A stretch of DNA of 64,000 nt from Geobacteraceae bacterium (GTDB taxonomy: Bacteria; Desulfobacterota; Desulfuromonadia; Geobacterales; Pseudopelobacteraceae): positions 1 to 64,000 of the forward strand of contig JAAXTM010000002.1 in the NCBI GenBank assembly GCA_013336525.1, in the 5' to 3' direction. Under the pieces are notes generated by a model. It worked only from the letters and a program-made list of their open reading frames with translations. It was not told the DNA's origin and did not search any database. Below are positions 3,564 to 40,571 of the stretch, piece after piece (position 1 is the first letter of the stretch; every line of letters starts with the position of its first letter). The position numbers were made by a program, and so were the translations under genes.

Positions 3564-4548
3564 GATGCACCTCCTCAAGCCGTTCTGCCAAAGGCCGCAG
3601 ATCAATACCGGTCGGACAGACAACCCTGCAACGACCACAGCCGACGCAGCTGGGAATCCCATGAAGCGTTCCGAAACTGCGATATTTATGTAGGTAACGA
3701 TAACGGAAACGCTCTGCCCGGTCTTTCCGAAAGCTCATTCCGCCCGCCACCTGAGCATGACTTTTAAAAAGGCAGTTATCCCATTGCCGCACCCGTACTG
3801 CAGAGCGGCCATCCAGCCCGCTGAACTCCAACACATCAAAGCAATAACAGGTTGGGCAACAGATCGAACAGGCGCCGCACCCAAGACATTTGTCAGCGTA
3901 CTCCTGCCATTCCGGGAGCGTTACATCGAGTTCATGGCGCGGCTGTTCTGAAACTGCATGGCCGAAGAAACGACGAGAATCTTCAGGCATATCCCCTTCC
4001 TGCTCTTCCAGAATATCTTTTATTCCTTCCAGTAGTTCATCACCCCGCGGAGAACCGCTGGCGACGGCAAAACCGCCCTCTACATTGCTTAGAAACAGGT
4101 CCGATAAAGCTTTTAACGGAGAGAGTATTTGTTGGCACGAGCAAAGCTCATCCGGAGTGCAGGCAACACCGATCAAAGTTGTGGCTGAACGCCGGGCGGC
4201 ATAGAGAGGATCTGGCTCGTCGCCCAGAAAGATCCGGTCAAGATAGTTTATTCCCGCAAGGTCGCAGGGGTGTAGCCCAAACATAATCAAAGGGGGAGAG
4301 ATTTCTACCGGCAGCTGATAGCCTGCTTCAGACGTGTAACTCAGAATAGTTTCCCGGGGATGCAGCAGATATTTTTTGGGGGGGAGCAGGGTGCGAAGAG
4401 CAGTAAGATCAGGAATTATCCCCGGAATGAGCAAGGAAAAACGCACCACACCATCATCTCCACGGACAGGAGCATGCAGTTCACCGTACCGACGCAACCG
4501 TTCTAAAAGCGCTTCCAGATTGTGGTCTGCAATGAAGTGGATTGCCAT
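3556..4548 (-). CDS. hydB: Sulfhydrogenase beta subunit, 4Fe-4S protein
   Basis: 330 aa, first gene of the hydrogenase operon. Two 4Fe-4S signatures lie in the C-terminal third (CLGCGACSICCPTC and CVGCGRCRVVCPTG), and there is an HPCDLAG motif typical of this family, which resembles anaerobic sulfite reductase subunit A. It wires the flavin subunit to external electron carriers. I chose the ATG at 4548 (MAIHFIADHN), preceded by AAGGTGG; the open frame extends 49 codons further upstream but would run over the promoter. Confidence 0.87.
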   Translation of the reverse strand: MAIHFIADHNLEALLERLRRYGELHAPVRGDDGVVRFSLLIPGIIPDLTALRTLLPPKKYLLHPRETILSYTSEAGYQLPVEISPPLIMFGLHPCDLAGINYLDRIFLGDEPDPLYAARRSATTLIGVACTPDELCSCQQILSPLKALSDLFLSNVEGGFAVASGSPRGDELLEGIKDILEEQEGDMPEDSRRFFGHAVSEQPRHELDVTLPEWQEYADKCLGCGACSICCPTCYCFDVLEFSGLDGRSAVRVRQWDNCLFKSHAQVAGGMSFRKDRAERFRYRYLHKYRSFGTLHGIPSCVGCGRCRVVCPTGIDLRPLAERLEEVHHG

Positions 4549-4591
4549 CCCTGCCACCTTGATTTGGACAGCTTTACAAGCTAACGTGTCA

Positions 4592-4619
4592 AGTATAGCG
4601 ACCGGCGCTAAATTGTCAA
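4592..4619 (-). promoter_or_regulatory. hydBGDA sigma-70 promoter
   Basis: On the minus strand, TTGACA (4614-4619), a 16-nt spacer and TATACT (4592-4597), with a start expected near 4585, about 37 nt upstream of the hydB ATG. It sits in the 85-nt gap after the glycosyltransferase gene, so the hydrogenase operon probably has its own strong promoter even if some read-through from acnA occurs. Confidence 0.7.
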
Positions 4620-4633
4620 ATTTAGGCACTGTA

Positions 4634-5713
4634 TCAGGCTGGTCTTTCCTGCCGCATTCGCTCTCTATAATCGACAATCCAGAACAACGGCGCAAGCACC
4701 CCCATGAACCAGATAAAGCAGCTCATGCCGGTAACTGCATCGAACACCCTGAAATTTGTACAAGGACCGAACAACCGATCATGGAATTTCAAAAAAGGAT
4801 AGCGGCCAGCCCCGAGGAGCGGGCGCAACCAGACATCTATAAAAAAGAACATCTGCCAGGAATTCTGTCGGATATAGCGTCCCAGGCGATAGAAAATGTG
4901 CAAAGTACCGCCAATTCCCCACCTTTCAGACATCATGCCCCAGATAAGGCTAAAAAATGGAGAGAGCAGAAGTACTCCGGTATCCTGCTGCGCCCGGTAG
5001 ACCCCTGGCGCCCGAACAAAAAACTCCTCCACACCGACACTGTGCAGCCCCATCATCATACTCATCAGGATGTAGCGGCGGTGAAAGCCCTCCGCCTCAA
5101 ACCGTCGTGCCGATGTTTTCAGATAACCGGGGAGTGTAATCAATTTCCCCTGTGATCGTATCGTCTCGGCAATGCGTTGATCTTCCAAAAACGGCATGCT
5201 TTCATCAAAGCCACCAAGATTTCTGAAGAACTCTCCTGCCATCAGCAAACCCTGATCGCCGTTTGTGGTATTGACGCGGCTAAAGGCGCTTTTTTCCTCG
5301 ATATAGCGATAGGCCATTTTGTTACGCTCCGTAGAGCGTATGAAACGCAGGCGGAAATGACCGGCAACTCGGTTATGTTTACACGATTCAAGCGTTATGG
5401 CACGTACGGCATTACTGAGAAGCGAGGGGTCGTCAATTCGGGAATCTGCGTGCAGAAACAGAACTAATCTACCGGTTGCCTGCCCTGCGGCAGCATTCAT
5501 CTGCGCCCCTCGACCCGGCCTGGCACTTACGAAGACAGCTCCATATTCCTCTGCCACTGACTGGGTCGCGTCCGATGAACCACCATCACCAACTATAATC
5601 TCCAGGGAGATATTCTTTTGATTCTTGAGATCATTCAAGAGTGCGGGTAGATACTCTGCTTCGTTCAGTGTCGGAACAATGATAGAAAGCAATGTCTGGG
5701 AGCTTTGCTGCAT
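4634..5713 (-). CDS. Glycosyltransferase family 2, TIGR04283-like
   Basis: 359 aa. N-terminal GT-A domain: LSIIVPTLNEAEYLPALL at the start, GDGGSSDAT as nucleotide-sugar contact, HADSR as the metal-binding DxD-like motif, and RGAQMNAAA, a hallmark of the TIGR04283 (rSAM/selenodomain-associated) group. Hydrophobic stretches in the C-terminal third (LLLSPFFSLIWGMM and near the end) suggest membrane association. It starts 17 nt after the acnA stop, so the two are likely cotranscribed. The sugar acceptor is unknown. Confidence 0.75.
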   Translation of the reverse strand: MQQSSQTLLSIIVPTLNEAEYLPALLNDLKNQKNISLEIIVGDGGSSDATQSVAEEYGAVFVSARPGRGAQMNAAAGQATGRLVLFLHADSRIDDPSLLSNAVRAITLESCKHNRVAGHFRLRFIRSTERNKMAYRYIEEKSAFSRVNTTNGDQGLLMAGEFFRNLGGFDESMPFLEDQRIAETIRSQGKLITLPGYLKTSARRFEAEGFHRRYILMSMMMGLHSVGVEEFFVRAPGVYRAQQDTGVLLLSPFFSLIWGMMSERWGIGGTLHIFYRLGRYIRQNSWQMFFFIDVWLRPLLGAGRYPFLKFHDRLFGPCTNFRVFDAVTGMSCFIWFMGVLAPLFWIVDYRERMRQERPA

Positions 5714-5730
5714 ATGTATCCTGCTGGATA

Positions 5731-8412
5731 TCAGCGTGGCAGATACCCAGCCAAAACGTGCTGCAGTATCCCACCAGCTTTGAAATAAGCGACCTCATTG
5801 GCTGTATCTATTCGGTTCTTAAGGGCAATTGTTGCAAGCACACCATCCGGACGGCTGATTTTTGCAGTCACTGCCATGCCGGGCTTAAACTCGGCCGCTG
5901 TGATCTTGAGTTCAATAGTTTCGCTCCCATCCAGTCCGAGCGTTTTTCTATTTTCTCCCTCCATAAACTGCAGCGGCAATATGCCCATGCCTATCAGGTT
6001 AGAGCGATGAATCCGCTCGAAGCTCTCGGCAATGACGACACGCACACCAAGCAGAAGAGGCCCCTTTGCAGCCCAGTCTCTGCTGGAGCCTGAGCCGTAT
6101 TCCTTCCCGGCGACGACAACCAGTGGCGCCCCTTCAGAACGATACAGCTCTGCAGCATCGAAAATCGTCATCTCATGGCCATCCGGGTAATGAACAGTCA
6201 AGCCCCCTTCACGTCCATCCACAATCTCGTTTTTGATGCGGATATTAGCAAAAGTGCCGCGCACCATCACGTCATGGTTCCCACGTCTTGACCCGTAAGA
6301 GTTGAAATCTGATACAGCAACCCCCACTCCTTGTAGATACAGGCCTGCGGGACTGCTTGGCGGAATATCACCAGCGGGTGAGATATGATCAGTAGTGATT
6401 GAGTCGCCAAAGAGAGCAAGAATATGCATCTTCCCCGGCAGGCTGATTTCTCCGCCGCCCTGTGCACCCTGCAGAAACGGCGGCTGTTTTACATAGCTGG
6501 AGCCGCTATCCCACGGATATGTAGGGGAACTGCTGTTATCAAGCCCTCTCCATTCCGGGGTGCCGTCGTACAGGTCGCCGTAACCAAGACGGAACATCTC
6601 CGGGGTAATAGCGCCGATCAGCTCATCTATTTCAGCCTGTTGCGGCCAGAGGTCCTTCAGATATACCGGGCGACCGTCCGCACGGTTGCCAAGCGGTTCG
6701 GAGGTTAGATCAATCCGTGTTGTGCCGGCAAGGGCAAAGGCCACAACCAGCGGCGGTGATGCAAGCCAGCTCAATTTCACCTGAGGGTGAATCCGCCCTT
6801 CAAAATTACGATTACCGGAAAGAACCGCCGAAACGGTAAGATTTTCAGAAATAATTGCGCTTTCAATTTCTTTCGGCAACGGACCAGAGTTACCAATGCA
6901 GGTTGTACAACCATAACCGACCAGATCGAAGCCAAGTGCGACCAGAGACCCGTACAATCCGGAGCGGCGGAGATATTCCATTACCACCTTGGAACCCGGG
7001 GCCAGAGATGTTTTGACCCACGGCTTGACCGCAAGCCCGGCCTCAACCGCCTTTTTGGCAAGGAGAGCAGCTGTCAGCATAACATTTGGATTGGAAGTAT
7101 TGGTACAGGAGGTGATCGCAGCGATAACAACATCTCCATCCTGCAGATCAACTCCAAGACTCTGAATAGTGGCTCTTCTGTCAACTTCTGTGTTGGGAAC
7201 TGACCTGGCCACTACGGCAGGAAGATCCGGAAGCGGAACCCGATCCTGCGGCCGCTTTGGGCCCGCCAGGCATGGGACCACGTCCGACAGATCCAAGGTT
7301 ACGATTTTCGTAAATACGGGGTCCGGCGAATGGGCATCACGCCACAACCCCTGCGCTTTTGCATAACCCTCTACCAGCTCGGTCACATCTTCGCGACCAG
7401 TGAAGCGAAGATATTTGATCGTCTCGGAATCAACCGGAAAATAGCCACAGGTAGCACCATATTCTGGTGACATGTTTGCGATCGTGGCGCGGTCGGCAAT
7501 TGTCAGGTCGTCGAGTCCGGAACCGTAGAACTCAACGAATTTACCAACTACACCAGTTTTTCGGAGAAGCTCCGTCACCGTAAGAACCAGGTCGGTTGCG
7601 GTCACTCCCGGTTGCAACCTACCGTCAAGCCGTACCCCTACGACGTCCGGTATGGTCATTGACACAGGCTGCCCAAGCATGGCGGCTTCCGCTTCAATCC
7701 CGCCGACCCCCCAACCGAGAATGCCAAGCCCGTTTATCATGGTTGTGTGACTGTCAGTTCCAAGCAGGGTGTCCGGAAAAACGACAGTAACCCCATCATT
7801 GTCAATCCTCTGCCAGATAACCCTGGCAAGATACTCCAGATTGACCTGATGACAAATGCCGGTTCCCGGAGGAACAACCCTGAAATTATCAAAAGCGTTC
7901 TGCCCCCAGCGCAGAAATGCATATCGCTCGCGGTTTCTCTCCATTTCACGCTCTACGTTGATCTGGAACGATTCCGGAGAACCGTAACTGTCAACTTGAA
8001 CCGAATGGTCAATGACCAGATCAACCGGAATAAGAGGGTTTATCGACTCCGGATTGCCTCCTGCAGCCGCGACCGCATCCCTCATGGCAGCCAGATCGGC
8101 AACAGCAGGCACACCGGTAAAATCCTGCATCAGCACTCGTCCTGGGCGAAAGGCGATCTCTCTCGTTGATGTACGCTGTTCAATCCAGTCGCTAAAGGCC
8201 AGGATATCCTCTGTTGTGACCGTATCCCCGTCCTCGTTGCGCAACAGGTTTTCCAAAAGAATCTTGAGGGTGCGTGGCAGTTTGGAAACCTCACCCGCCC
8301 CCGCCATTTCAACAGCATTTATACTGTAGATACGGAAAGCCTGACCGTTCACCGCCAGGGTTGCTGCAGAGCTGTATGAGTCAAGCAAAGTTTTTTCATG
8401 CAAACTTTTCAT
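5731..8412 (-). CDS. acnA: Aconitate hydratase A
   Basis: 893 aa, full length for the AcnA/IRP family. Converts citrate to isocitrate in the TCA cycle via a [4Fe-4S] cluster. Cluster ligands are visible as SCTNTSN (Cys436) and GYGCTTCIGNSGP (Cys502, Cys505). DTLLGTDSHTT (~214-224) and the C-terminal swivel-domain motif YGSGSSRDWAAKG are also present. ATG at 8412 has AAGGTGGG upstream. The divergent gap to the DUF302 gene holds its promoter; a weak TTGCAT/TAATTA pair is possible. Confidence 0.96.
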   Translation of the reverse strand: MKSLHEKTLLDSYSSAATLAVNGQAFRIYSINAVEMAGAGEVSKLPRTLKILLENLLRNEDGDTVTTEDILAFSDWIEQRTSTREIAFRPGRVLMQDFTGVPAVADLAAMRDAVAAAGGNPESINPLIPVDLVIDHSVQVDSYGSPESFQINVEREMERNRERYAFLRWGQNAFDNFRVVPPGTGICHQVNLEYLARVIWQRIDNDGVTVVFPDTLLGTDSHTTMINGLGILGWGVGGIEAEAAMLGQPVSMTIPDVVGVRLDGRLQPGVTATDLVLTVTELLRKTGVVGKFVEFYGSGLDDLTIADRATIANMSPEYGATCGYFPVDSETIKYLRFTGREDVTELVEGYAKAQGLWRDAHSPDPVFTKIVTLDLSDVVPCLAGPKRPQDRVPLPDLPAVVARSVPNTEVDRRATIQSLGVDLQDGDVVIAAITSCTNTSNPNVMLTAALLAKKAVEAGLAVKPWVKTSLAPGSKVVMEYLRRSGLYGSLVALGFDLVGYGCTTCIGNSGPLPKEIESAIISENLTVSAVLSGNRNFEGRIHPQVKLSWLASPPLVVAFALAGTTRIDLTSEPLGNRADGRPVYLKDLWPQQAEIDELIGAITPEMFRLGYGDLYDGTPEWRGLDNSSSPTYPWDSGSSYVKQPPFLQGAQGGGEISLPGKMHILALFGDSITTDHISPAGDIPPSSPAGLYLQGVGVAVSDFNSYGSRRGNHDVMVRGTFANIRIKNEIVDGREGGLTVHYPDGHEMTIFDAAELYRSEGAPLVVVAGKEYGSGSSRDWAAKGPLLLGVRVVIAESFERIHRSNLIGMGILPLQFMEGENRKTLGLDGSETIELKITAAEFKPGMAVTAKISRPDGVLATIALKNRIDTANEVAYFKAGGILQHVLAGYLPR

Positions 8413-16948: not shown

Positions 16949-18550
16949 CTACCCCAGCATCTGCTTCATATCGGCATCGACCGTTGTGATCGGTCCGATG
17001 TTGAAGTTCTCGACGAGGAAGTTCAGCACGTTGGGGGTGATAAAAGCCGGCAGTGTTGGTCCAAGCTTGATGTTTTTGATGCCCAGATGGAACAGCGTCA
17101 GCAGGATAACAACCGCCTTTTGTTCATACCAGGAAAGAACCATCGAAAGCGGCAGGTCGTTGACGCCGCACTCAAAAGCACCTGCCAGAGCAACGGCAAT
17201 CTTGATGGCCGAGTAGGCATCATTGCACTGTCCTATGTCCAAAAGACGCGGGATGCCGCCGATATCACCGAACTCCAGCTTGTTGAAACGATACTTGCCG
17301 CAAGCCAGGGTCATGATGACCGTATCCTTGGGTGCCTTCTCGGCAAACTCGGTGTAATAGTTACGCCCCGATTTGGCGCCGTCGCAGCCCCCCACCAGGA
17401 AGAAGTGCTTGATGGCACCGGACTTGACACCGGCAATGACCTTGTCTGCTACACCCAGCACGGCGTTGTGCCCGAAACCGGTCAGAATTTCCTGGCCCGG
17501 ATTTTCCGGCAGTGCCGGGCACTCAAGAGCTTTGTTGATTACCGGGCTGAAATCCCAGCCGTCGATATGCTTGACGCCGGGCCAGGCAACAAGACCCCAG
17601 GTGTAAAGGCGGTCGATATAAGATTCAGCCGGTTTCTGGATGCAGTTGGTGTTGAAGATAATGGCACCGGGGAAATTGGCAAATTCCCTGGCCTGATCCT
17701 GCCATGCACCGCCGTAGTTGCCAACCAGGTGGCTGTACTTTTTCAGTCCTGGATAGCCGTGAGCCGGCAGCATCTCGCCATGGGTATAGACGTTGATCCC
17801 CTTCCCCTCGGTCTGCTTGAGGATCTCTTCCATCATCTTCATGTCATGGCCGGTAACAAGAATGGCTTTGCCGGCTTTAGTGCCGAGCTGCACAGCTGTC
17901 GGAACCGGGTGACCGTAGGTATCGGTGTGGGCGCTGTCGAGCAGCCCCATAACGGTCAGGTTCTGCTTGCCGCACTCCATCGCGAGGCCGACAAAATCCA
18001 TCAGACCAAGATTGGCGTCGGTTGTTGCGGCCAGGGCCCTCTGAAAGAAAGCCATAACCTCATCATCGCTCTTGCCAAGGATCATGGCGTGATCCATATA
18101 AGCGGCCATACCCTTCAGGCCGTACATGAGAATTTCGATGACGGAGCGGATGTCTTCATTAACATGCTGGGTGTTGATGCCGTGAGCCTCACCCTGTGTA
18201 GTCATGCCGGCCAGATCGGCAGCAGGCTTCCAATCGGCAACCGGTCCGGAAAGTGTAACGCCGGCAGCAGCCTTGGCTTTCTCTTTCAACTCGTAGCAAC
18301 GGGTGATCAGGGCGCCAATTCGTGCGGCTTCAAAGTCAACGTTAGTTACAGTGCTGAAAAGCCCCTCGATGGTAAAACGGTCAATCTCGGCGTTCCGTCC
18401 CATCTTGTCAGCGTAAAGCGCGAGACTTTTGAGACCGTAAAGCAGGTGATCCTGCAGCGCAGCTACTTCAGGTTTTTTGCCGCATACGCCGGAGATGTTG
18501 CACCCGGTTCCATTTGCCGCCTGCTCGCATTGATTACAAAACATACTCAT
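16949..18550 (-). CDS. hcp: Hydroxylamine reductase / hybrid cluster protein
   Basis: 533 aa. An NO/hydroxylamine-detoxifying enzyme of the class I type. N-terminal Cys5, Cys8, Cys17 and Cys23 show the C-x2-C-x8-C-x5-C spacing of the [4Fe-4S]-bearing Desulfovibrio form. Hybrid-cluster motifs occur later (GCDGAKSGRNYY, LACGKYRFNKL, GQCNDAYSA). Cytoplasmic. Monocistronic, with a terminator downstream and an FNR/HcpR-type site upstream. A 496-codon open frame on the opposite strand is a codon-usage shadow. Confidence 0.96.
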   Translation of the reverse strand: MSMFCNQCEQAANGTGCNISGVCGKKPEVAALQDHLLYGLKSLALYADKMGRNAEIDRFTIEGLFSTVTNVDFEAARIGALITRCYELKEKAKAAAGVTLSGPVADWKPAADLAGMTTQGEAHGINTQHVNEDIRSVIEILMYGLKGMAAYMDHAMILGKSDDEVMAFFQRALAATTDANLGLMDFVGLAMECGKQNLTVMGLLDSAHTDTYGHPVPTAVQLGTKAGKAILVTGHDMKMMEEILKQTEGKGINVYTHGEMLPAHGYPGLKKYSHLVGNYGGAWQDQAREFANFPGAIIFNTNCIQKPAESYIDRLYTWGLVAWPGVKHIDGWDFSPVINKALECPALPENPGQEILTGFGHNAVLGVADKVIAGVKSGAIKHFFLVGGCDGAKSGRNYYTEFAEKAPKDTVIMTLACGKYRFNKLEFGDIGGIPRLLDIGQCNDAYSAIKIAVALAGAFECGVNDLPLSMVLSWYEQKAVVILLTLFHLGIKNIKLGPTLPAFITPNVLNFLVENFNIGPITTVDADMKQMLG

Positions 18551-26287: not shown

Positions 26288-27721
26288 TTACTCTTTGAAA
26301 TCATCACGGTGCAGGCGTTTGTTCAGAGTAGGACGGGATATATCAAGAAGCGCCGCTGCTCCTGTCTGGTTGTTGCCGGTAAGCTTGAGGGCCTCTGCAA
26401 TCATAAACTCCTCCATTTCACTAATTGTAGGGAAACGGCCAAACATGGAGATCAGCATATTTGCATCTCGTACCGGGGCAGGCAAGTCACTGCAGCGAGA
26501 CGGAGAGCCGCTTTGCAGGCATGGAAACGCTTCCATGGACACAAGACCATGCTTCCAACGTGCCACGACATCAAAGGCGATAGATCGGAGTTCGCGGACA
26601 TTTCCTGGAAAGTGGCAGGTTGAGAGGCGCAGAGGTATTTCGGGATCAAGCACCGGCATCTCGCTGCCGAATGCCTGTGACGCTTCGCGAAGAAAATGGT
26701 TTAAAAGAAGAAGTATGTCTTCCGGCCGATCACGCAGCGGGGGGATGTGAATCTGATGGGCACAGAGACGATAATAAAGATCCCTGCGAAACTGTCCTGC
26801 CGCTACCCGCTCCTGAAGATCATGGTTTGTCGCCACAACAATATGCGTTGCTACTTTCCTGAGTGTGTCTGACCCGACCGGATAATACTCACCATGATGT
26901 ATAAGGCGCAGAAGCTTGATCTGCGATGCTTCACCCAGATCGCCTATTTCATCGAGAAACAGTGTGCCGCCGGCTGCCTTGGCAATCAGTCCTTCACGAT
27001 GGACACTGGCACCGGTAAAAGCGCCCCTGGAATGACCGAAGAGCGTGTCTGTAAACATGACATCATCCAGTCCTGCAATGTTGACTGATATGAAATCACC
27101 CTTGAGCCCGCTGGCTTTATGAATAGCCTGAGCAAAGAGGTCCTTGCCGACACCGGTCTCACCTGTGATAAGAACCGGTTCAGGAGAATGTGCAACGACC
27201 TCTACATAGGAGAAGAGCCTTTTTATCCGGGAAGAACAGGAAATTATACCGGAAAAGACCTCCGGATGTTCAAGCGTATCTGACAGCAGTTTCTTTTTCA
27301 GAGACGCGATTTCACCGGCCATGGCATCTATCCTGAGGGCCTTGTTGACGGCTGACAGCAGCCGGCTCTCCTCAACCGGCTTGATAAGATAATCAAACGC
27401 ACCGTTTTTCATACATGCAACGGCCGCCTCCACATCGTACAAGGCGGTCATTATTATCACCGGCAGTTGGGGGAAAGCGGATACGATTTCCGGCAGCAGA
27501 TCCGTTCCTGAGACATTGGGCATCATCAGGTCGAGCAAAATCAGTGATACCGGCTGCTTCTCCACGTTCAACAACGAAATGACCTTTTGACTGTCATTCA
27601 GGGTAATAATATTGGAAATACCCTTGCTGCACAGAGTCATCCTGGTGACGTCAAGAACATGATCCTCGTCGTCAACAAGCAGTATCGGCAGTGTCGGAAC
27701 AGGATGTGTCGATCGTGCCAT
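26288..27721 (-). CDS. NtrC-family sigma-54 response regulator
   Basis: 477 aa. Receiver domain with acidic pocket (LVDDED), phospho-acceptor Asp64 and Lys114. AAA+ domain ~150-390 with Walker A GETGVGKD (187-194), sigma-54 contact GAFTGA (233-238) and Walker B FLDEIGD (~255-261). C-terminal Fis-type helix-turn-helix (GNNQTGAAALLDISRPTLNKR). AAAGGAG precedes the ATG. It overlaps the kinase gene by 50 nt, so the two act as a pair. Targets are unknown; nearby -24/-12 elements are candidates. Confidence 0.93.
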   Translation of the reverse strand: MARSTHPVPTLPILLVDDEDHVLDVTRMTLCSKGISNIITLNDSQKVISLLNVEKQPVSLILLDLMMPNVSGTDLLPEIVSAFPQLPVIIMTALYDVEAAVACMKNGAFDYLIKPVEESRLLSAVNKALRIDAMAGEIASLKKKLLSDTLEHPEVFSGIISCSSRIKRLFSYVEVVAHSPEPVLITGETGVGKDLFAQAIHKASGLKGDFISVNIAGLDDVMFTDTLFGHSRGAFTGASVHREGLIAKAAGGTLFLDEIGDLGEASQIKLLRLIHHGEYYPVGSDTLRKVATHIVVATNHDLQERVAAGQFRRDLYYRLCAHQIHIPPLRDRPEDILLLLNHFLREASQAFGSEMPVLDPEIPLRLSTCHFPGNVRELRSIAFDVVARWKHGLVSMEAFPCLQSGSPSRCSDLPAPVRDANMLISMFGRFPTISEMEEFMIAEALKLTGNNQTGAAALLDISRPTLNKRLHRDDFKE

Positions 27722-33741: not shown

Positions 33742-33914
33742 CTGATTAGAACCAATCTCCTGTTACGCCGATTTCAAAATCCCCTCTCCATGAGGGAGAG
33801 GGTTAGGGTGAGGGGAAAACGCATGATTTATTGTACTTTTTCTTCCCCTCATCCGGCCTTCGGCCACCTTCTCCCTCAGGGAGAAGGAAATAGCGAGAGA
33901 TAAGTGCTAATCAG
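33742..33914. repeat. Hairpin-rich MITE-like repeat, copy 2
   Basis: Terminal inverted repeats CTGATTAGAACCAATCTCC at the left and a ~16/20 match at 33895-33914. The internal hairpin and ATCCGGCCTTCGGCC are as in copy 1. Ends 29 nt before the stop codon of the secreted-protein gene. Confidence 0.8.
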
Positions 33915-33943: not shown

Positions 33944-34453
33944 CTACTGCTTTTTAATATTTTTATCATGGATGAAGCGGTGAAGCTCTTCGATGGTCTT
34001 CGCCTTATCAAGAGCCTGCTGAATCTCCTTTGCCGGGATTGGGTTGAGCTTCTTGGCCAACGCAGCCTCTTCACTGCCGCCGACATGAATCGTGTTATGT
34101 ACTTTCTCGGGGGGGACCTCGCCACGGTCGCCCACCAGATGGACATAGCAGATGTAGGGATTGAATATCAGGGCTTCACTGATGACGACGCGTGCCATCT
34201 CCAGGGGAACATTTTTGCCAAGCCAGATAACACGGTTTGTCTGTGCATTCTCAATGCGAATGTTCTTCGGGAAAATGACCGCCTTTATTCCTTTTGCTTC
34301 CAGGTTTTTCACGAGATCACCGCTTTTTTCGATATCAGCTACTTCCACGGTAAAGAGCGGTGGCGATTGCTCAGCCTTCACAGAGCTGGGACTCCAGGTT
34401 GTTAGAATACAGGTGATGATGAGAACAAGCGGGACCGTTGTAAACCAGCGCAT
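33944..34453 (-). CDS. Small secreted protein, cytochrome-module partner A
   Basis: 169 aa from the ATG at 34453 (AAAGGAG upstream). Signal peptide ~1-27 (VKAEQ). Not a recognised family. It is paralogous to the protein at 37379-37912, sharing VEVADIxKS, LEAKGIKxVI, NIRI, WxGKNVPL and RGEVPPE...TIHVGGS. Each copy follows a decaheme cytochrome gene. Periplasmic; a partner or maturation factor for the cytochrome is an inference. Bracketed by repeat copies 2 and 3. Confidence 0.75.
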   Translation of the reverse strand: MRWFTTVPLVLIITCILTTWSPSSVKAEQSPPLFTVEVADIEKSGDLVKNLEAKGIKAVIFPKNIRIENAQTNRVIWLGKNVPLEMARVVISEALIFNPYICYVHLVGDRGEVPPEKVHNTIHVGGSEEAALAKKLNPIPAKEIQQALDKAKTIEELHRFIHDKNIKKQ

Positions 34454-34541
34454 GCAGCGTACTCCTTTCAAAATGTAAAGTGATGAATTGATTTGCGAAC
34501 ATAACAATAGCAGAAAAATGTTCATGCCCTGCTTATTTTTT

Positions 34542-34731
34542 CCTGAATCGTTCCAATAAGGCGCTTGGGGTCTAAACAGTTCCCTCTCCATGAGGGAGAG
34601 GGTTAGGGTGAGGGGAAAAATGGTGGATTATGCAGCACCGTCATCCCCTCATCCGGCCTTTGGCCACCTTCTCCTTTAGGCCCTAGGGTCCTAAGGGAGA
34701 AGGGTTTTGCGCCCTATTAGAACTAATCAGG
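34542..34731. repeat. Hairpin-rich MITE-like repeat, copy 3 (with extra hairpin)
   Basis: Ends match as inverted repeats over 19 of 23 positions (34542-34564 against 34709-34731). Same core as copies 1 and 2, but the second arm carries an inserted hairpin CTTCTCCTTTAGG/CCTAAGGGAGAAG near 34670-34704. Confidence 0.8.
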
Positions 34732-34768
34732 TATTTTTTCACTAACAGATGTTCCTTGGCAAAACATT

Positions 34769-34797
34769 AAAAAAGGGGCGGCTGTATCAGCCGCCCC
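34769..34797 (-). terminator. Intrinsic terminator after decaheme cytochrome 1
   Basis: Stem GGGGCGGCT/AGCCGCCCC with a 5-nt loop and six T on the minus strand, 29 nt past the stop. Layout matches the terminator after cytochrome 2. Confidence 0.9.
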
Positions 34798-34825
34798 CTG
34801 AAGAACCTTACAAAATTTTACAATA

Positions 34826-36874
34826 CTAGTTTGGTGTCATCTTCAGGCCGCGTTCCGGTCTGGAGAAGTTGTGGCACAAGGAGCAGTCGTAGCCTTTTGC
34901 GATATGCGAATGAATTCTGGTGTAGTCGCCAGGTGTTTTCGCACGATGGCACTGTGCACAAACAGTTGTTGTTGGTCCCTTGAGGGCATAGCCCATAGTC
35001 TTGAGATTCATCCGGGTAGTGCTTTCATGGCAGTCAGCGCAGGTCAGTACGTTGCCAACTGCTGTTGGAACCTGATGGTTCAGCAGCTGAAGCTCGTCAG
35101 TAGTAATTGTTGTGTAACCTCCGCTGATACCCATGTAAGCCATACCGTCAAGAACGGCCTGGTTGTAGTTACCGGTGGCAAAGAAGGTAGCGGTGGAGAG
35201 ATCGACGATCTTGCCGCCGGCCAACGCTTGTGTAGCAGTCTTGTACTTGAACGGAAACAGCTTCGTGCCGACTGCGTCGGTGATCGCACCCACCGGACGG
35301 GAAATCTTGTATGCGCCGGTGGTTGGGTCGATAACTGCTGCGTCAAAGGAGTTGTTACCCCAGCTGGTGCCGTTCCAGAAAGCATATTTTGGCATCTGAT
35401 CATTTGCTTTGGTAGGCAGCGGCTCATAGCGGTTTAGAGTGGCATTCCACTCGTTGTGCTGCCAGTCGCGGTGCATTTCAGTAGCCTCTGTTGCTGCGGT
35501 GTCATTGGCATTCTTGGCGTATGTTTTGATGTGACAGGTCTGGCATGCAACGCGGGTGACGTGCGTGTTGACAGCCGAAGTGGAATGACCGCTGGTGATT
35601 GAGCTCTTGGTTGTGTGGCAGGTGCTTGTGGAGCAGCTCAGCTGTACTGTGCTGTCCTGGGGACGTATATCAGTACCGCGGCCGGCTACCCGGTGAGCGG
35701 TGAACGTATGGCAGCCCTGGCACTGGATGTTGCCGCCGGAGCCCATGGCCATATGTGTGTCATACAGTACGTCGCTGGTAGTACCGGAAGCCAGGGCGAT
35801 ATCGCCGCGCTTGACTGCGTCGCCGCCGCCTGCTTTAGCATGGCATCCGAGGCAGTTCTTGCGAATCGGTTTGATGTTGGCTTTCTGTGCAACCAGGTTC
35901 ATGTTAAGGCCAACAGCAGGCTCAAAGAGGCCGGTTGTAGCGTTGCGAACACGGCTGTAAGGGGCGTTGACGGTGTCGTTGTGGCAGATAAGGCAGTCAA
36001 TGCTGGCAAGCTGTGCAGCAGAAGGGCTGGCAGTAGCAACAGGCTTGGCACCGGTACCGACATGGCAGGCGCCACATGGGCCCCAATTGCCTTGAATGTT
36101 GATGCAGTATGCGTTAAGTGCACTGGAGCCGTCTGTGGCGTCCATCTTGCCCTGAGTGGCCGGACCGGTTGTCATTTCTGCTGCAGAACCTTTCCACTGG
36201 TAGTGAACGGACTGGTACATGGCCTGAGCCTGGCTGGTATGGCATGAGATACAGATGTCATAGCCGGTCCAGGTGATAGCAGCGTGACCGGTCACAGCAG
36301 TGATAGTATAAAGGCCGGTTTTGACCGCTTCACTGTTTCCTGCAGTATCCCTTGAGAAATACTTCAGGGTTGTGGTAGCGGCGATGTTAATCGGAGCGCT
36401 ATAGACAGTGGAAGAAGTGGTTGGTGTCGTACCGTTGGTAGTGTAATAGGTGGTGCCTGCTTCGTTACGGGTCAGGGTTACGTTCTGAGCCGAGGTGTAC
36501 GTTCCGGCAGCTGGTGATGCGGTGGTGACCGGCGGAGTTGTGTCGCTGCCGGCGTTAATAGTGTACAGACCGGTTTTAACAGCTTCGCTGTTACCGGCGG
36601 TATCGCGGGAGAAATACTTCAAAGTTGTTGTTGTGGCGATGCTGATCGGTGCGCTGTACACGGTTGACGATGTCGTCGGGGTGGAACCGTTGGTGGTGTA
36701 ATACGTGGTGGCCGGCTCATTGGCGGTCAAGGTTACGCTCTGTGCCGAGGTGTACGTCCCGGCAGCAGGTGTTGCGGTGGTGACCGGTTTTTGTTTGTCG
36801 GCAGCAAATGAAATGCTGCTTAAGGCCAGGATGATCAAACAGATACTGCATAATACTGATACAATTTTTTTCAT
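34826..36874 (-). CDS. Decaheme c-type cytochrome with two chitobiase-like domains
   Basis: 682 aa. Signal peptide 1-24. Two ~85-residue domains (TATPAAGTYTSAQ...TTYYTTNG...TLKYFSRDTAGN) of the CHB_HEX_C-like type, near-identical to each other. The cytochrome region (~200-682) has nine CxxCH sites (CISCH, CGACH, CLICH, CLGCH, CQGCH, CQTCH, CADCH, CAQCH, CSLCH) plus one C-x4-CH (CSTSTCH), ten hemes in all. Periplasmic or surface electron transfer. Close paralogue of cytochrome 2; transcribed from a sigma-54-type promoter. Confidence 0.9.
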   Translation of the reverse strand: MKKIVSVLCSICLIILALSSISFAADKQKPVTTATPAAGTYTSAQSVTLTANEPATTYYTTNGSTPTTSSTVYSAPISIATTTTLKYFSRDTAGNSEAVKTGLYTINAGSDTTPPVTTASPAAGTYTSAQNVTLTRNEAGTTYYTTNGTTPTTSSTVYSAPINIAATTTLKYFSRDTAGNSEAVKTGLYTITAVTGHAAITWTGYDICISCHTSQAQAMYQSVHYQWKGSAAEMTTGPATQGKMDATDGSSALNAYCINIQGNWGPCGACHVGTGAKPVATASPSAAQLASIDCLICHNDTVNAPYSRVRNATTGLFEPAVGLNMNLVAQKANIKPIRKNCLGCHAKAGGGDAVKRGDIALASGTTSDVLYDTHMAMGSGGNIQCQGCHTFTAHRVAGRGTDIRPQDSTVQLSCSTSTCHTTKSSITSGHSTSAVNTHVTRVACQTCHIKTYAKNANDTAATEATEMHRDWQHNEWNATLNRYEPLPTKANDQMPKYAFWNGTSWGNNSFDAAVIDPTTGAYKISRPVGAITDAVGTKLFPFKYKTATQALAGGKIVDLSTATFFATGNYNQAVLDGMAYMGISGGYTTITTDELQLLNHQVPTAVGNVLTCADCHESTTRMNLKTMGYALKGPTTTVCAQCHRAKTPGDYTRIHSHIAKGYDCSLCHNFSRPERGLKMTPN

Positions 36875-37012
36875 GCGGTTATTCCTCCAAATTCAAAGGT
36901 TAGTGGTACTTGCAAACTGCTTTGCCTTGTAACGACAATTTAACTTCTGATCTGCGCGCCTCTGTGAGATTAGCTTCCTCCCTGGAGTTTGGAGTATAAA
37001 TAATTCAAGTGT
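36875..37012 (-). promoter_or_regulatory. Conserved 5' leader of cytochrome 1
   Basis: About 138 nt between the predicted sigma-54 start and the ATG. It aligns along its length with the leader of cytochrome 2. It contains a hairpin GCAAAGCAGTTTGC (36912-36925, minus strand), flanking arms that can pair (36941-36944 with 36899-36902), and a 6-nt palindrome GCGCGC. No known riboswitch consensus was matched. Confidence 0.45.
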
Positions 37013-37022
37013 CTCTGTTGTT

Positions 37023-37038
37023 AGCAGAAAACATTCCA
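37023..37038 (-). promoter_or_regulatory. Sigma-54 (-24/-12) promoter of cytochrome 1
   Basis: The minus strand reads TGGAATGTTTTCTGCT: GG and GC exactly 10 nt apart, TGC at -12. The same element with TGGAACGATTTCTGCT precedes cytochrome 2 at the same distance from its ATG. Confidence 0.65.
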
Positions 37039-37168
37039 CTTTTATAATACAAGCATAACAAATTATCATAACCATTGCTGAACAGGTACTTACAATCCCA
37101 ACTTTAGCAGCATATAATGTTTACTAATTCAGTAGACGACTATTAATTAAAATACCGAGCTGTTCAGT

Positions 37169-37247
37169 GGGTGATATGCCCCAAAAATGACAACAGCTGA
37201 GGCATTTAACCCTGATCGTTGATGGGTATTTCTGGGGTGTATCACCC
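37169..37247 (-). promoter_or_regulatory. Enhancer-like inverted repeats upstream of cytochrome 1
   Basis: GGGTGATATGCCC (37169-37181) and a perfect GGGTG-TAT-CACCC (37235-37247), lying 130 and 196 nt upstream of the -24 element, a usual distance for sigma-54 activator sites. The gap 36913-37378 holds only these control elements. Confidence 0.5.
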
Positions 37248-37378
37248 ATAACCATAAAAACAGGCACTGGACATGAAAACTGCGTTCCAGTAAGCACTGG
37301 CACTGCAGTACATGGGGCAAAACCGCTGTTTGTTGCGATATCACTCCACACAACGCAAAGCCATCAAAAGACTGGCAA

Positions 37379-37912
37379 CTACTCTGTGGGCGCTGTTTTC
37401 AGCGCCCTGTTTTTTTCCAGCAGATATCCGTGCAACTCCTCAACGCTCTTGGCAGCGGCGAGTGTTTTCAGAAACTCCTGCCGATCAATGACATTCAGCT
37501 TTTTGTACAGGGCCGCTTCGATGCTGCCGCCGATATGGATGGTTCTGTGGAATGCTTCCGGCGGAACTTCTCCCCTCTCCCCCACGATGTAGAAAAACTT
37601 GAGATACGGATAGAGGCGTATCGCTTCGGGCAGAACTGTCTGCAGTGCTGTCAAGGGGACATTTTTCCCGATCCATACGGCGCAGTTGGTCTGTTCATCG
37701 ACTATCCTGATATTTGCCGGCGGGATAACCGTTTTGATTCCTTTTGCCTCAAGGAGGGTGACCAGTTCCTTGAGCTCCTTGCTCTTGCCGACGTCGGCGA
37801 TTTCAACGGTGACGGTTGCTGGCAGTTCTGCAGCATAAACCATTGTGGTGCTGAAAACTGTCAGGAGAAATAAAACGGCAAAGATGAGGCGTGATGCTGA
37901 AAAGCTGGTCAT
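37379..37912 (-). CDS. Small secreted protein, cytochrome-module partner B
   Basis: 177 aa. Signal peptide ~1-27 (MVYAAE). Paralogue of the protein at 33944-34453, with shared VEIADVGKS, LEAKGIKTVI, WIGKNVPL and RGEVPPE...TIHIGGS. Located downstream of cytochrome 2 after a terminator. A GGGCGCTG/CAGCGCCC hairpin overlaps its 3' end. Family not recognised; a role with the cytochrome is inferred from duplicated linkage. Confidence 0.75.
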   Translation of the reverse strand: MTSFSASRLIFAVLFLLTVFSTTMVYAAELPATVTVEIADVGKSKELKELVTLLEAKGIKTVIPPANIRIVDEQTNCAVWIGKNVPLTALQTVLPEAIRLYPYLKFFYIVGERGEVPPEAFHRTIHIGGSIEAALYKKLNVIDRQEFLKTLAAAKSVEELHGYLLEKNRALKTAPTE

Positions 37913-37930
37913 GACTTACCTCCGGAATCT

Positions 37931-37959
37931 AAAAAAGGGGCCGGCGAAATGCCGGCCCC
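37931..37959 (-). terminator. Intrinsic terminator after decaheme cytochrome 2
   Basis: Stem GGGGCCGGC/GCCGGCCCC with a 5-nt loop and a run of six T on the minus strand, 26 nt past the stop. The small secreted gene beyond it starts 19 nt later, so its expression would depend on read-through or its own start site. Confidence 0.9.
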
Positions 37960-37984
37960 CGGTGCTGCGTTACTGCAATGATGC

Positions 37985-40111
37985 TTACTTGGTCATCTTC
38001 AGACCGCGCTCAGGGCGGGAGAAGTTGTGGCAGAGTGAGCAGTCATATCCTTCGCTGTCAACGTGCTTGCTGTGTACTGATGTGTAGCTCGGTACGCTTT
38101 CGCTGCCGTGGCAGTCGTTGCACAGGTCGCTGGTTGGCTTCTTCAGGCCGTAGCCGAAGTTGGTGATCAGCTTCATCTTGGTTGCTGTGGTGTTCGGGTG
38201 GCAGGCTGAACAGGACAGAGCGTTGCCGGATGCAGGTGGTATCTGGTGGTTGAGTACCTGATACTCGTCGGTTGTTACTGTCTGCCACGCATCGCCGGTG
38301 CGGCCCATGTTGGCGAGACCGGTGTTTACTGCTGTTACATAGTTGCCATCTGCAAAGAAGCTGCGGGTGGAGAGGCCGATCAGTTTGCCGGTGGTTGTGT
38401 CAAGCGGCTGCTGAGCGGTTTTGTACTTGAATGGGTAAAGCTTGGTGCCGGCCGGGTCAGTTATAGCGCCGTTCGGCCGGGAGATCTTGTAAAAGCCGGT
38501 TGTCGGGTCGATTACAGCAGCATCATTGAGGTTGTTGCCCCAGCTGGTGCCGTTCCAGAATGCATATTTAGGTACGAGGTTGCTGCCCTTGGTAGGAAGC
38601 GGCTCGTAGCGAAGCAGGGTTGCATTCCACTCGTTATGTTCCCAGGTACGGTTTGTTTCGGTTGCTTCTGTGGCGGTTGTGTCGTTGGCATCTTTTGCGT
38701 AAATCGGCAGGTGGCAGGTCTGGCAGGCCACGCGTGCTGTGTGCTTCTGGATACCGGATGTTGCATGGCCGGTGCTTACGCCGGTTTTTGTTGGGTGACA
38801 GGTTGTTGTAGCGCAGGTTACTGCTACTGTGGAGTCTTGCGGACGGAGGTCGGAACCGCGGCCGGCTACTTTGTGGTTGGTGAATTTGTGGCAGTTCTGG
38901 CAAGTCATGTTACCACGGCTGGTTGCCATGTGTACGTCATAGAGGCTGTCAGCGGTTGTGCCGGATGCTAGGGCGATGTCGCCGCGTTTTACTGCGTCGC
39001 CGCCGCCAGCTTTGGCGTGGCAGCCGAGGCAGGTGTTACGAACTGGTTTGATGACGGTGCGAACGACGTTGTTCATGTCGATGCCGACGTTTGGCTCGAA
39101 GAGGCCGGTTGTGGCATTACGTGTACGGGCATATGGTGTTGCGATGGTGCCGTTTTTGTGGCACATGAGGCAGTCGATTTCGGCAAGCTGTGCGTCAGAC
39201 GGTGTGGTTGTTGCGACAGGCTTGTTACCGGTTCCTGCGTGGCAGGCGCCGCAGGCTTTCCAGCCGTCAAGGATGTTGATGCAGTATGCGTTAAGTGCGC
39301 TGGAGCCGTCGAGGGAGTCCATCTTGCCCTGTTTTGCAGCTGGGCCGGTGGTCATTTTTGCGCCGGATGCCATCCACTGATAGTGAACGCCCTGGTACAT
39401 GTCGGTTGAGGAGGTGCGGTGGCAGGCGAGGCATGTGCCGTAGCCGGTCCAGGTCAGGCTGGTGTTGGCAGCATCGTGGGTTTTAGGACCGCTGATGGTG
39501 TACACGCCGGTTTTTACGGCTTCGCTAACGCCAGCGGTGGTACGGGAGAAATACTTCAGGGTTGTGGTTGTTGCAACTGGAATCGCTGCTGAGTAAGTTT
39601 TTGTTGTTCCGGCCACTGGGTAAACCGGTGTGGTGCCGTCAGTGGTGTAATAGATTGGAGCTGCTGGCACACTTGTCAGCGTTACGTTCTGTGCGGCAGT
39701 GTAAGTACCTGCAGCAGGAGTTGCTGTGGTAACTGATGCTGCTGACCCAACAGTAAAGTTTATTGTAGCGGTGCCGGTATCAGAGGAACTGGCAACAGCA
39801 ACCTTGTCTGACCAAGTGCCGGCTGGTGCGCTGCTGGACAGGGTGTAGCTGTAGGTGTATGTGCCGGTGCTGACTTTGGTCATGCTTACAGCATTTACCT
39901 TAGTGGAACCGGATGGGTCTTTGATGGTGATTTTAGGAGAACTGGATGGGCTCGAAAGTGAGCCGCTTCTTTTAAGCAGTGCAGTGGTCTTTACAACATT
40001 ACCGGCGGAATAGGTGGCCTTGTCGGTGGTGACGGTGACCGTGTAGGTAGATGCATACGCAAATACCGGCAAGAGCATACAGATCAGTAATAAGGTAACA
40101 ATTTTTTTCAT
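37985..40111 (-). CDS. Decaheme c-type cytochrome with Ig-like and chitobiase-like domains
   Basis: 708 aa. Signal peptide 1-20. An Ig/macroglobulin-like domain (~22-125), then one chitobiase-like domain, then a cytochrome region homologous to cytochrome 1 with nine CxxCH (CLACH, CGACH, CLMCH, CLGCH, CQNCH, CQTCH, CSACH, CNDCH, CSLCH) and one C-x4-CH (CATTTCH). Both end CSLCHNFSRPERGLKMT. Periplasmic or surface electron carrier. The N-terminal domain swap between paralogues suggests different anchoring or partners. Confidence 0.9.
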   Translation of the reverse strand: MKKIVTLLLICMLLPVFAYASTYTVTVTTDKATYSAGNVVKTTALLKRSGSLSSPSSSPKITIKDPSGSTKVNAVSMTKVSTGTYTYSYTLSSSAPAGTWSDKVAVASSSDTGTATINFTVGSAASVTTATPAAGTYTAAQNVTLTSVPAAPIYYTTDGTTPVYPVAGTTKTYSAAIPVATTTTLKYFSRTTAGVSEAVKTGVYTISGPKTHDAANTSLTWTGYGTCLACHRTSSTDMYQGVHYQWMASGAKMTTGPAAKQGKMDSLDGSSALNAYCINILDGWKACGACHAGTGNKPVATTTPSDAQLAEIDCLMCHKNGTIATPYARTRNATTGLFEPNVGIDMNNVVRTVIKPVRNTCLGCHAKAGGGDAVKRGDIALASGTTADSLYDVHMATSRGNMTCQNCHKFTNHKVAGRGSDLRPQDSTVAVTCATTTCHPTKTGVSTGHATSGIQKHTARVACQTCHLPIYAKDANDTTATEATETNRTWEHNEWNATLLRYEPLPTKGSNLVPKYAFWNGTSWGNNLNDAAVIDPTTGFYKISRPNGAITDPAGTKLYPFKYKTAQQPLDTTTGKLIGLSTRSFFADGNYVTAVNTGLANMGRTGDAWQTVTTDEYQVLNHQIPPASGNALSCSACHPNTTATKMKLITNFGYGLKKPTSDLCNDCHGSESVPSYTSVHSKHVDSEGYDCSLCHNFSRPERGLKMTK

Positions 40112-40248
40112 TCAGTAATCCTCCAGGATTCATGGGTAAGTTGTACTTGCAAACAGCTTTGCTTTGTTACGACTCTTTACCTGTTGAAACTGTGCACCTC
40201 TTTGAGATAGGTATTCCTCCTTAGTATCTGGGTATAAATAATCAAGTT
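40112..40248 (-). promoter_or_regulatory. Conserved 5' leader of cytochrome 2
   Basis: 137 nt, the same length as the cytochrome 1 leader. Hairpin GCAAAGCTGTTTGC at 40149-40162; arms GGTAA (40177-40181) and TTACC (40135-40139) can form a 5-bp outer stem 24 nt before the ATG; palindrome GTGCAC replaces GCGCGC. Confidence 0.45.
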
Positions 40249-40258
40249 CTTTGTTATC

Positions 40259-40274
40259 AGCAGAAATCGTTCCA
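40259..40274 (-). promoter_or_regulatory. Sigma-54 (-24/-12) promoter of cytochrome 2
   Basis: The minus strand reads TGGAACGATTTCTGCT, close to TGGCACG-N4-TTGC with exact GG-N10-GC spacing. A TTGTTAT...ATAACAA inverted repeat lies just upstream. Confidence 0.68.
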
Positions 40275-40404
40275 CTTTTGTTATATCAACATAACAAATA
40301 TTCATAACTGTTATAGTACAGCTATTTATAGACCAAACTTTAGCAGTGCATAATGTTTATCAATCTAGTCGAGGACCATTAATTAAAATATTGGGGCATC
40401 ATTT

Positions 40405-40447
40405 GGGTCATATAACCCATGCCATAACATTTTCTGAGGTATATACC
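40405..40447 (-). promoter_or_regulatory. Enhancer-like inverted repeats upstream of cytochrome 2
   Basis: GGGT-CATATA-ACCC (40405-40418), exactly 130 nt upstream of the -24 element as in the other copy, plus GGTATATACC (40438-40447). A further GGGTATACTCCC at 40472-40483 may instead belong to the divergent phnA promoter. The gap 40112-40571 holds no gene. Confidence 0.5.
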
Positions 40448-40571
40448 CCTGCAAGGTATGGGGCGTTTTTAGGGTATACTCCCTAGATAAAAAAATAACT
40501 GCCAGATGCGTAAAAACTGCGTGCCGACCGGCGCAGACACTGTTACAATCACAATAAAAAAGGATCAACTC

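Follow-up and report, generated by a model that had tools for sequence, protein, structure and literature searches.

Two tandem modules of an OTR-like decaheme cytochrome and a small secreted protein, with differing histories of promoter and genes, in a Geobacteraceae bacterium

The metal-respiring Geobacter-type bacteria have many multiheme cytochromes, the substrates and partners of which are mostly unknown. The described enzyme with which the cytochromes of this report are best compared is octaheme tetrathionate reductase (OTR) of Shewanella oneidensis (PDB 1sp3), for which nitrite, hydroxylamine and tetrathionate are reported as substrates (PMC4484225). As for regulation, cyclic GMP-AMP (cGAMP) riboswitches are reported to be abundant in Geobacter (PMC8835794), and the RpoN regulon of G. 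sulfurreducens is reported to include cytochromes (PMC2725144). Here we describe two neighbouring modules, A and B, each consisting of a cytochrome with an OTR-like heme core and a small, putatively secreted protein, in the genome of a Geobacteraceae bacterium (3.5 Mb in 28 contigs; GenBank assembly GCA_013336525.1). They lie on contig JAAXTM010000002.1, positions 1 to 64,000 of which make up the 64,000-nucleotide (nt) stretch that was analysed and that we call the window. We propose, in a reading that we consider evenly balanced, that each module encodes an OTR-like secreted decaheme reductase together with a dedicated small partner, is driven by sigma-54, and has evolved by exchange of its parts.

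The two modules are arranged head to tail on the minus strand, and in each the cytochrome gene is followed by a hairpin terminator and the gene for the small secreted protein:

40259..40274, minus strand: sigma-54-type -24/-12 element of A, TGGAACGATTTCTGCT, a pattern match
40116..40390, minus strand: upstream region of A, 76% identical to that of B
37985..40111, minus strand: cytochrome A, 708 aa, with a signal-peptide-like start, MG2, CHB_HEX_C_1, the OTR-like heme core and ten heme motifs
37936..37960, minus strand: hairpin terminator after cytochrome A, a hairpin plus T run
37379..37912, minus strand: small secreted protein A, 177 aa, with no Pfam or NCBIfam family
37023..37038, minus strand: sigma-54-type -24/-12 element of B, TGGAATGTTTTCTGCT, a pattern match
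36880..37154, minus strand: upstream region of B, 76% identical to that of A
34826..36874, minus strand: cytochrome B, 682 aa, with a signal-peptide-like start, two CHB_HEX_C_1, the OTR-like heme core and ten heme motifs
34773..34799, minus strand: hairpin terminator after cytochrome B, a hairpin plus T run that resembles the hairpin of genome G271
33944..34453, minus strand: small secreted protein B, 169 aa, with its start set by homology in place of the listed 34591

The coordinates, the identities and the hairpins confirm the first-pass annotation in its description of two tandem modules, each with a cytochrome, a terminator and a paralogous secreted protein. The open reading frame (ORF) start listed for small protein B, 34591, proved to be overlong, and homology moves it to 34453. 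Between A and B, the cytochromes are 57% identical (404 of 714 alignment columns), the small proteins 49% (82 of 168) and the upstream regions 76% (212 of 278 nt; E 1e-50). The statement that the modules have their whole upstream region in common holds over these 278 nt; the similarity fades past the start codon and reappears in the heme core.

Each cytochrome carries nine CXXCH motifs and one CX4CH motif, which bears out the decaheme count; eight of the ten lie inside the part that aligns with OTR and the two further ones are C-terminal. Residues 226-644 of cytochrome A align to the eight-heme core of OTR with an E value of 1.5e-39 and 32% identity. For comparisons across the family we used 39 of 47 cytochrome matches (46 plus that of G271), leaving out 7 matches of a distant group at 39% identity; a fragment in genome G082 (L121) is excluded from every count. 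The column of OTR Lys153 holds Lys in 39/39 of these cytochromes and the column of Cys64 holds Cys in 36/39, A and B included in both cases; the three without Cys are distant relatives, in which the alignment has a gap at this column. In OTR both residues have roles at the active heme. Differences from OTR are the ten heme motifs, one of them CX4CH, the N-terminal MG2 and/or chitobiase-type domains, and the accompanying gene for a small secreted partner. Against the TIGR04315 family model, A scores 232.1 bits and B 218.1 bits, below the cut-off of 375 bits, and where that model specifies eight hemes both proteins have ten motifs. The model of the GSU2203 family decaheme cytochrome (NF041028, cut-off 325 bits) gives B 31 bits and does not list A. 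Because the core is homologous and the equivalents of Lys153 and Cys64 are kept, the two cytochromes likely work like OTR; because they fall below the cut-off and have two extra hemes, we do not claim membership of TIGR04315.

The N-termini differ in their Ig-like and chitobiase-like domains as first described: Pfam finds MG2 (Ig-like) and one chitobiase-type CHB_HEX_C_1 domain in cytochrome A, and two CHB_HEX_C_1 domains and no MG2 in cytochrome B. Over 114 aligned residues the N-terminal parts of B and of the G271 cytochrome are 79.8% identical, and the G271 protein shows a single CHB stretch; the N-terminus of B thus looks like the one-domain form with an internal duplication. Elsewhere in the family, the cytochrome beside the small protein in genome G078 (L093) sits on a long branch and is down to 7 CXXCH motifs, perhaps through decay or altered heme binding, and three distant cytochromes (L049, L119 and L120) have ten CXXCH motifs, keep the OTR Lys and have a sigma-54-like TTGGTATAAGGGTTGCTT about 100 nt upstream.

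The small protein was searched for with a profile built from six members, run on genome sets of the order, the class and the phylum. It matched in 13/141 genomes of the order, in 14/277 of the class and in 1/395 of the phylum draw, this one being the present genome. There are 15 small-protein genes in 14 genomes, and 15/15 lie on the same strand as, and directly downstream of, an OTR-like decaheme-type cytochrome gene, at gaps of 66 to 372 nt (estimated starts). The genomes that bear them belong to four genera of three families, with differing flanks, although the rows of the linkage and promoter counts are not independent, one genus (g9) supplying 10/14 of these genomes. The first-pass annotation had linked the secreted protein to these cytochromes and had expected, were the link false, that the small proteins would mostly be found without them; what we find is every one of the 15 beside one. 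Co-occurrence is thus complete from the side of the small gene, but not from that of the cytochrome, which is often alone (24/39). In genomes with loci L098 and L099, two OTR-like cytochromes stand in tandem with one small-protein gene behind the second. In the literature we came across no paper that describes a small protein next to cytochromes of the OTR-like kind, though no search specific to the pairing was made.

The small protein has a signal-peptide-like N-terminus and no lipobox, both judged by eye, and no heme motif. Its description as a family without a name stands: Pfam gave no family for 6/6 aligned members at E values up to 10, a range where HMMER filters lose weak matches, NCBIfam gave nothing, the best match among PDB sequences had an E value of 0.49, and no match was found in plasmids (with protein A as query) or in phages (with protein B). 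With the overlong ORF of small protein B, Pfam returned a single match, a chance one below threshold (HlyIII, E 0.052). AlphaFold2 models made from three sequences had predicted local distance difference test (pLDDT) scores of 78.7 and 81.9. With both models Foldseek returned nothing at E 0.001 or better, and a second structural comparison gave Z scores below 5 only. The top two structural matches of both models are the C-terminal domains of Rv0431 and of an Rv2700 orthologue, which we take to be of LytR_C type; the matches to 2m5y have Z 4.5 (root mean square deviation 3.8, 87 aligned) and Z 4.4 (3.5, 83 aligned), and since these Z scores are far under the safe level, the likeness to Rv0431 is a lead only. 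LytR_C (PF13399) itself was found in 0/58 relatives of the small protein.

The presence of the small gene goes with a particular kind of promoter. We searched the 300 nt upstream of the cytochrome genes for a sigma-54-type pattern, TGG[AC]A[CT]N6TGC[TA], which was written after viewing several of these sequences. It is found upstream of 14/15 small-bearing genes, A and B included, versus 3/24 of the others (Fisher p 6e-7), where shuffled sequences lead one to expect 0.06 and 0.05, respectively; in the controls it is found in 2/39 cases in the 300 nt past the stop codon and in 0/39 upstream on the opposite strand. The three sites without a small gene belong to the tandem companions in genomes G074 and G075 and to G088, of the same clade. 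The GEMM-I (c-di-GMP-I) riboswitch, RF01051, occurs upstream of 11/23 scanned cytochromes that have no small gene (L049 was left out of the 24) and of 0/15 that have one. No RF01051 was found in the window at gathering score, and on the module region Rfam gave sub-gathering-score matches only. Close paralogues of A and B, one of them in the present genome, thus resemble the GEMM-I riboswitch-controlled genes of Geobacter in having RF01051 upstream, from which the modules of the window differ in carrying a sigma-54-type element and no riboswitch at gathering score. Judged by these upstream motifs, regulation appears to sort the cytochrome family, with a sigma-54-type promoter where the small gene is present and a riboswitch among the others.

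Further upstream of both modules are palindrome-like sites, and a candidate regulator is encoded in the window:

40405..40483, no strand: palindrome-like GGGT..ACCC sites upstream of A, possible activator sites, exact at 40405-40418 and with one or two mismatches at 40437-40448 and 40472-40483
37169..37247, no strand: palindrome-like sites upstream of B, with one mismatch at 37169-37182 and two at 37234-37247
26288..27721, minus strand: NtrC-type sigma-54 activator, candidate regulator, with a receiver, Sigma54_activat and a Fis helix-turn-helix
27672..30155, minus strand: PAS histidine kinase adjoining the activator

At no more than 1 mismatch, GGGTNATATNACCC occurs at 12 places in the genome versus 1 for the reversed control. 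Six of the places are intergenic. Modules A and B have one each in front of them, an eight-heme protein has two and a major facilitator superfamily (MFS) transporter has one, and the sixth separates a histidine kinase gene from a small gene that diverges from it. Because the other 6 of the 12 lie within genes, a GGGTNATATNACCC regulon is a lead only. A second palindrome pattern upstream of A is weakly enriched in the window. Locus L107 encodes, at 3896-7190, a protein that has a PKD domain and eight CXXCH motifs and is in part MtrC-like, though under the cut-off; upstream of it lie two GGGT..-type palindromes, 34 nt apart, as if it belonged to the same regulon.

A third cytochrome gene of the present genome (L041, contig C10, 7495-9624) has an upstream riboswitch, and its flanks are shared with a riboswitch-bearing locus of genome G009. 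In the core it shares 97.8% identity with A, and about 840 nt are 100% identical, whereas its upstream region is unlike that of A and its N-terminal third is 55.6% identical. The G009 gene in the corresponding place is 54.9% identical to the C10 core, compared with 88.1% between the cores of A and its G009 orthologue. The simplest reading of these identities would be that the C10 core was converted by module A. An assembly artefact might still be the source of the identity between A and C10, but the sizes of the contigs (166 and 798 kb) and the graded edges of the block speak against it.

It is on the origin of module B that the first-pass annotation, which regarded the modules as a duplication, is not supported. 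A local tandem duplication of one module, with both halves then diverging, would account for the same order, orientation and terminator position in A and B, for the 76% identity of the 278-nt upstream regions and for the single module with the same left-hand flank in G009. In both its coding parts, however, B is nearer to other families or orders than to A: the cytochrome core of B is 84.0% identical to that of G271 (another order), 78.1% to that of G089 (another family) and 65.7% to that of A, and small protein B is 75% identical to that of G089, 72% to that of G271 and 49% to that of A. In a tree of 13 of the 15 small proteins, from which those of G074 and G075 were left out, the split grouping B with these distant kin is supported 100/100, and the approximately unbiased (AU) test rejects a clade of A, B and G009 with p 0.001 for the small protein and p 0.044 and 0.039 for the cytochrome. 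The hairpin after B, too, resembles that of G271, and we regard a tandem duplication as very unlikely. The upstream regions behave differently from the coding parts. Informative sites at which A equals B versus those at which A equals G009 number 43:46 upstream and 58:332 in the core (Fisher 1.4e-10), and the upstream region of G271 shows no similarity to that of B at E 0.001; because of this contrast, the promoter region of B appears to share recent history with that of A, and the coding parts do not. We had also considered that the promoter of A is closer to that of B (76%) than to that of its G009 orthologue (72%), and rejected this since the upstream site count is even (p 0.83); our claim is therefore limited to the contrast between upstream region and coding core. 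The same contrast could arise from an ancient duplication before the families split, followed by differential loss and later homogenisation of the promoters, with no horizontal arrival of B. This would fit the occurrence of both types in one order and their patchy presence, and the promoter would be explained by gene conversion, a process that the C10 copy suggests. Yet among the g1 genomes searched, the B type is in the present genome only, the sole other g1 genome with a match, G009, has the A type, and the nearest kin of B are in another order (G271) and another family (G089). An ancient duplication is therefore possible, if on the doubtful side.

The constant neighbourhood of small protein and cytochrome likewise admits of other explanations. 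Instead of partnering the cytochrome, the small protein could act in the periplasm as a sensor or co-sensor for a nearby histidine kinase. In the g9 loci similarity clustering places kinase-like genes upstream (with domains checked in L040 only), there are kinases near the G089 module, and the PAS kinase and sigma-54 activator of the window are about 4 kb from module B. We consider this unlikely, since no kinase is near the G009 and G271 modules in the stretches read (by similarity clustering), the types of kinase vary between lineages, and what the small gene directly follows is in 15/15 cases the cytochrome. Or the small gene might be unrelated to the cytochrome and carried along neutrally by synteny, as the share of one genus (10/14 genomes) and the many cytochromes without a small gene would allow; the pair is nevertheless kept across four genera of three families with differing flanks, and both genes of B have the same distant kin, so that neutral hitch-hiking seems quite improbable.

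We return, then, to an OTR-like reductase with a dedicated partner. The first gene of each module would encode a secreted decaheme cytochrome made of an OTR-type eight-heme catalytic core and two C-terminal hemes, probably held at the envelope or the surface by its N-terminal Ig-like and chitobiase-like domains. Periplasmic cytochromes would supply electrons that pass through the chain of hemes to the one ligated by Lys, and the substrate would, as for OTR, be a small nitrogen or sulfur oxyanion or a related compound such as nitrite, hydroxylamine or tetrathionate. The second gene would encode a dedicated secreted partner free of heme motifs, most likely a subunit for assembly, stability or docking. 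Since its gene lies behind the terminator of the cytochrome, the partner would perhaps be produced in smaller amounts, by read-through. The sigma-54 promoter would drive the module, probably fired by an enhancer-binding protein such as that at 26288-27721. Module B would be a unit of different ancestry that now stands behind an A-type promoter, and a paralogue under riboswitch control at another place in the genome would have received a copy of the heme core of A.

Several observations weigh against this proposal. With genus g9 so prominent among the small-bearing genomes, the linkage of cytochrome and small protein may in part be inherited synteny. Cytochromes are often on their own (24/39). 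A hairpin lies between the two genes in 11/15 pairs, and similar hairpins follow 21/24 cytochromes without a small gene; the hairpin is therefore an ordinary gene end and co-transcription of the pair is not certain. The AU values for the cytochrome are barely below 0.05, and unequal constraint could add to the contrast between upstream and coding sequence. The cytochrome/small-protein pair of G271 has no recognisable sigma-54 site, and the site in genome G080 is at -57, compared with -163 to -233 elsewhere. As for the palindromes, a stricter dyad rule leaves one site for A and none for B, and at other loci they are unclear.

Other features lie around the modules. A Prismane (hybrid cluster protein) gene is found at 16952-18550, about 15 kb from the modules, and in G009, which has one module, a gene with the same start lies about 3.5 kb away from it; the nearby Prismane gene may point to nitrogen-oxide chemistry. 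Small protein B is flanked by repeats resembling repetitive extragenic palindromic (REP) elements, the 25-nt core of which occurs at 16 places in the genome at no more than 2 mismatches:

33782..33904, no strand: REP-like repeat, on one side of small protein B
34582..34680, no strand: REP-like repeat between cytochrome B and small protein B

A secreted protein that has no name and was seen solely beside one type of enzyme is a direct handle on that enzyme. We suggest tentatively that the small protein is the first of a new family, one that serves OTR-type decaheme reductases as dedicated extracytoplasmic subunits or maturation factors, and that the promoter (sigma-54 or a cyclic-dinucleotide riboswitch), the surface domains and the heme core recombine independently of one another as exchangeable parts. 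If this is true, one catalytic core has been placed under different sensing logics within one genome, and the split between sigma-54 and riboswitch, together with the copied core, would open the diversification of respiratory repertoires to direct test.

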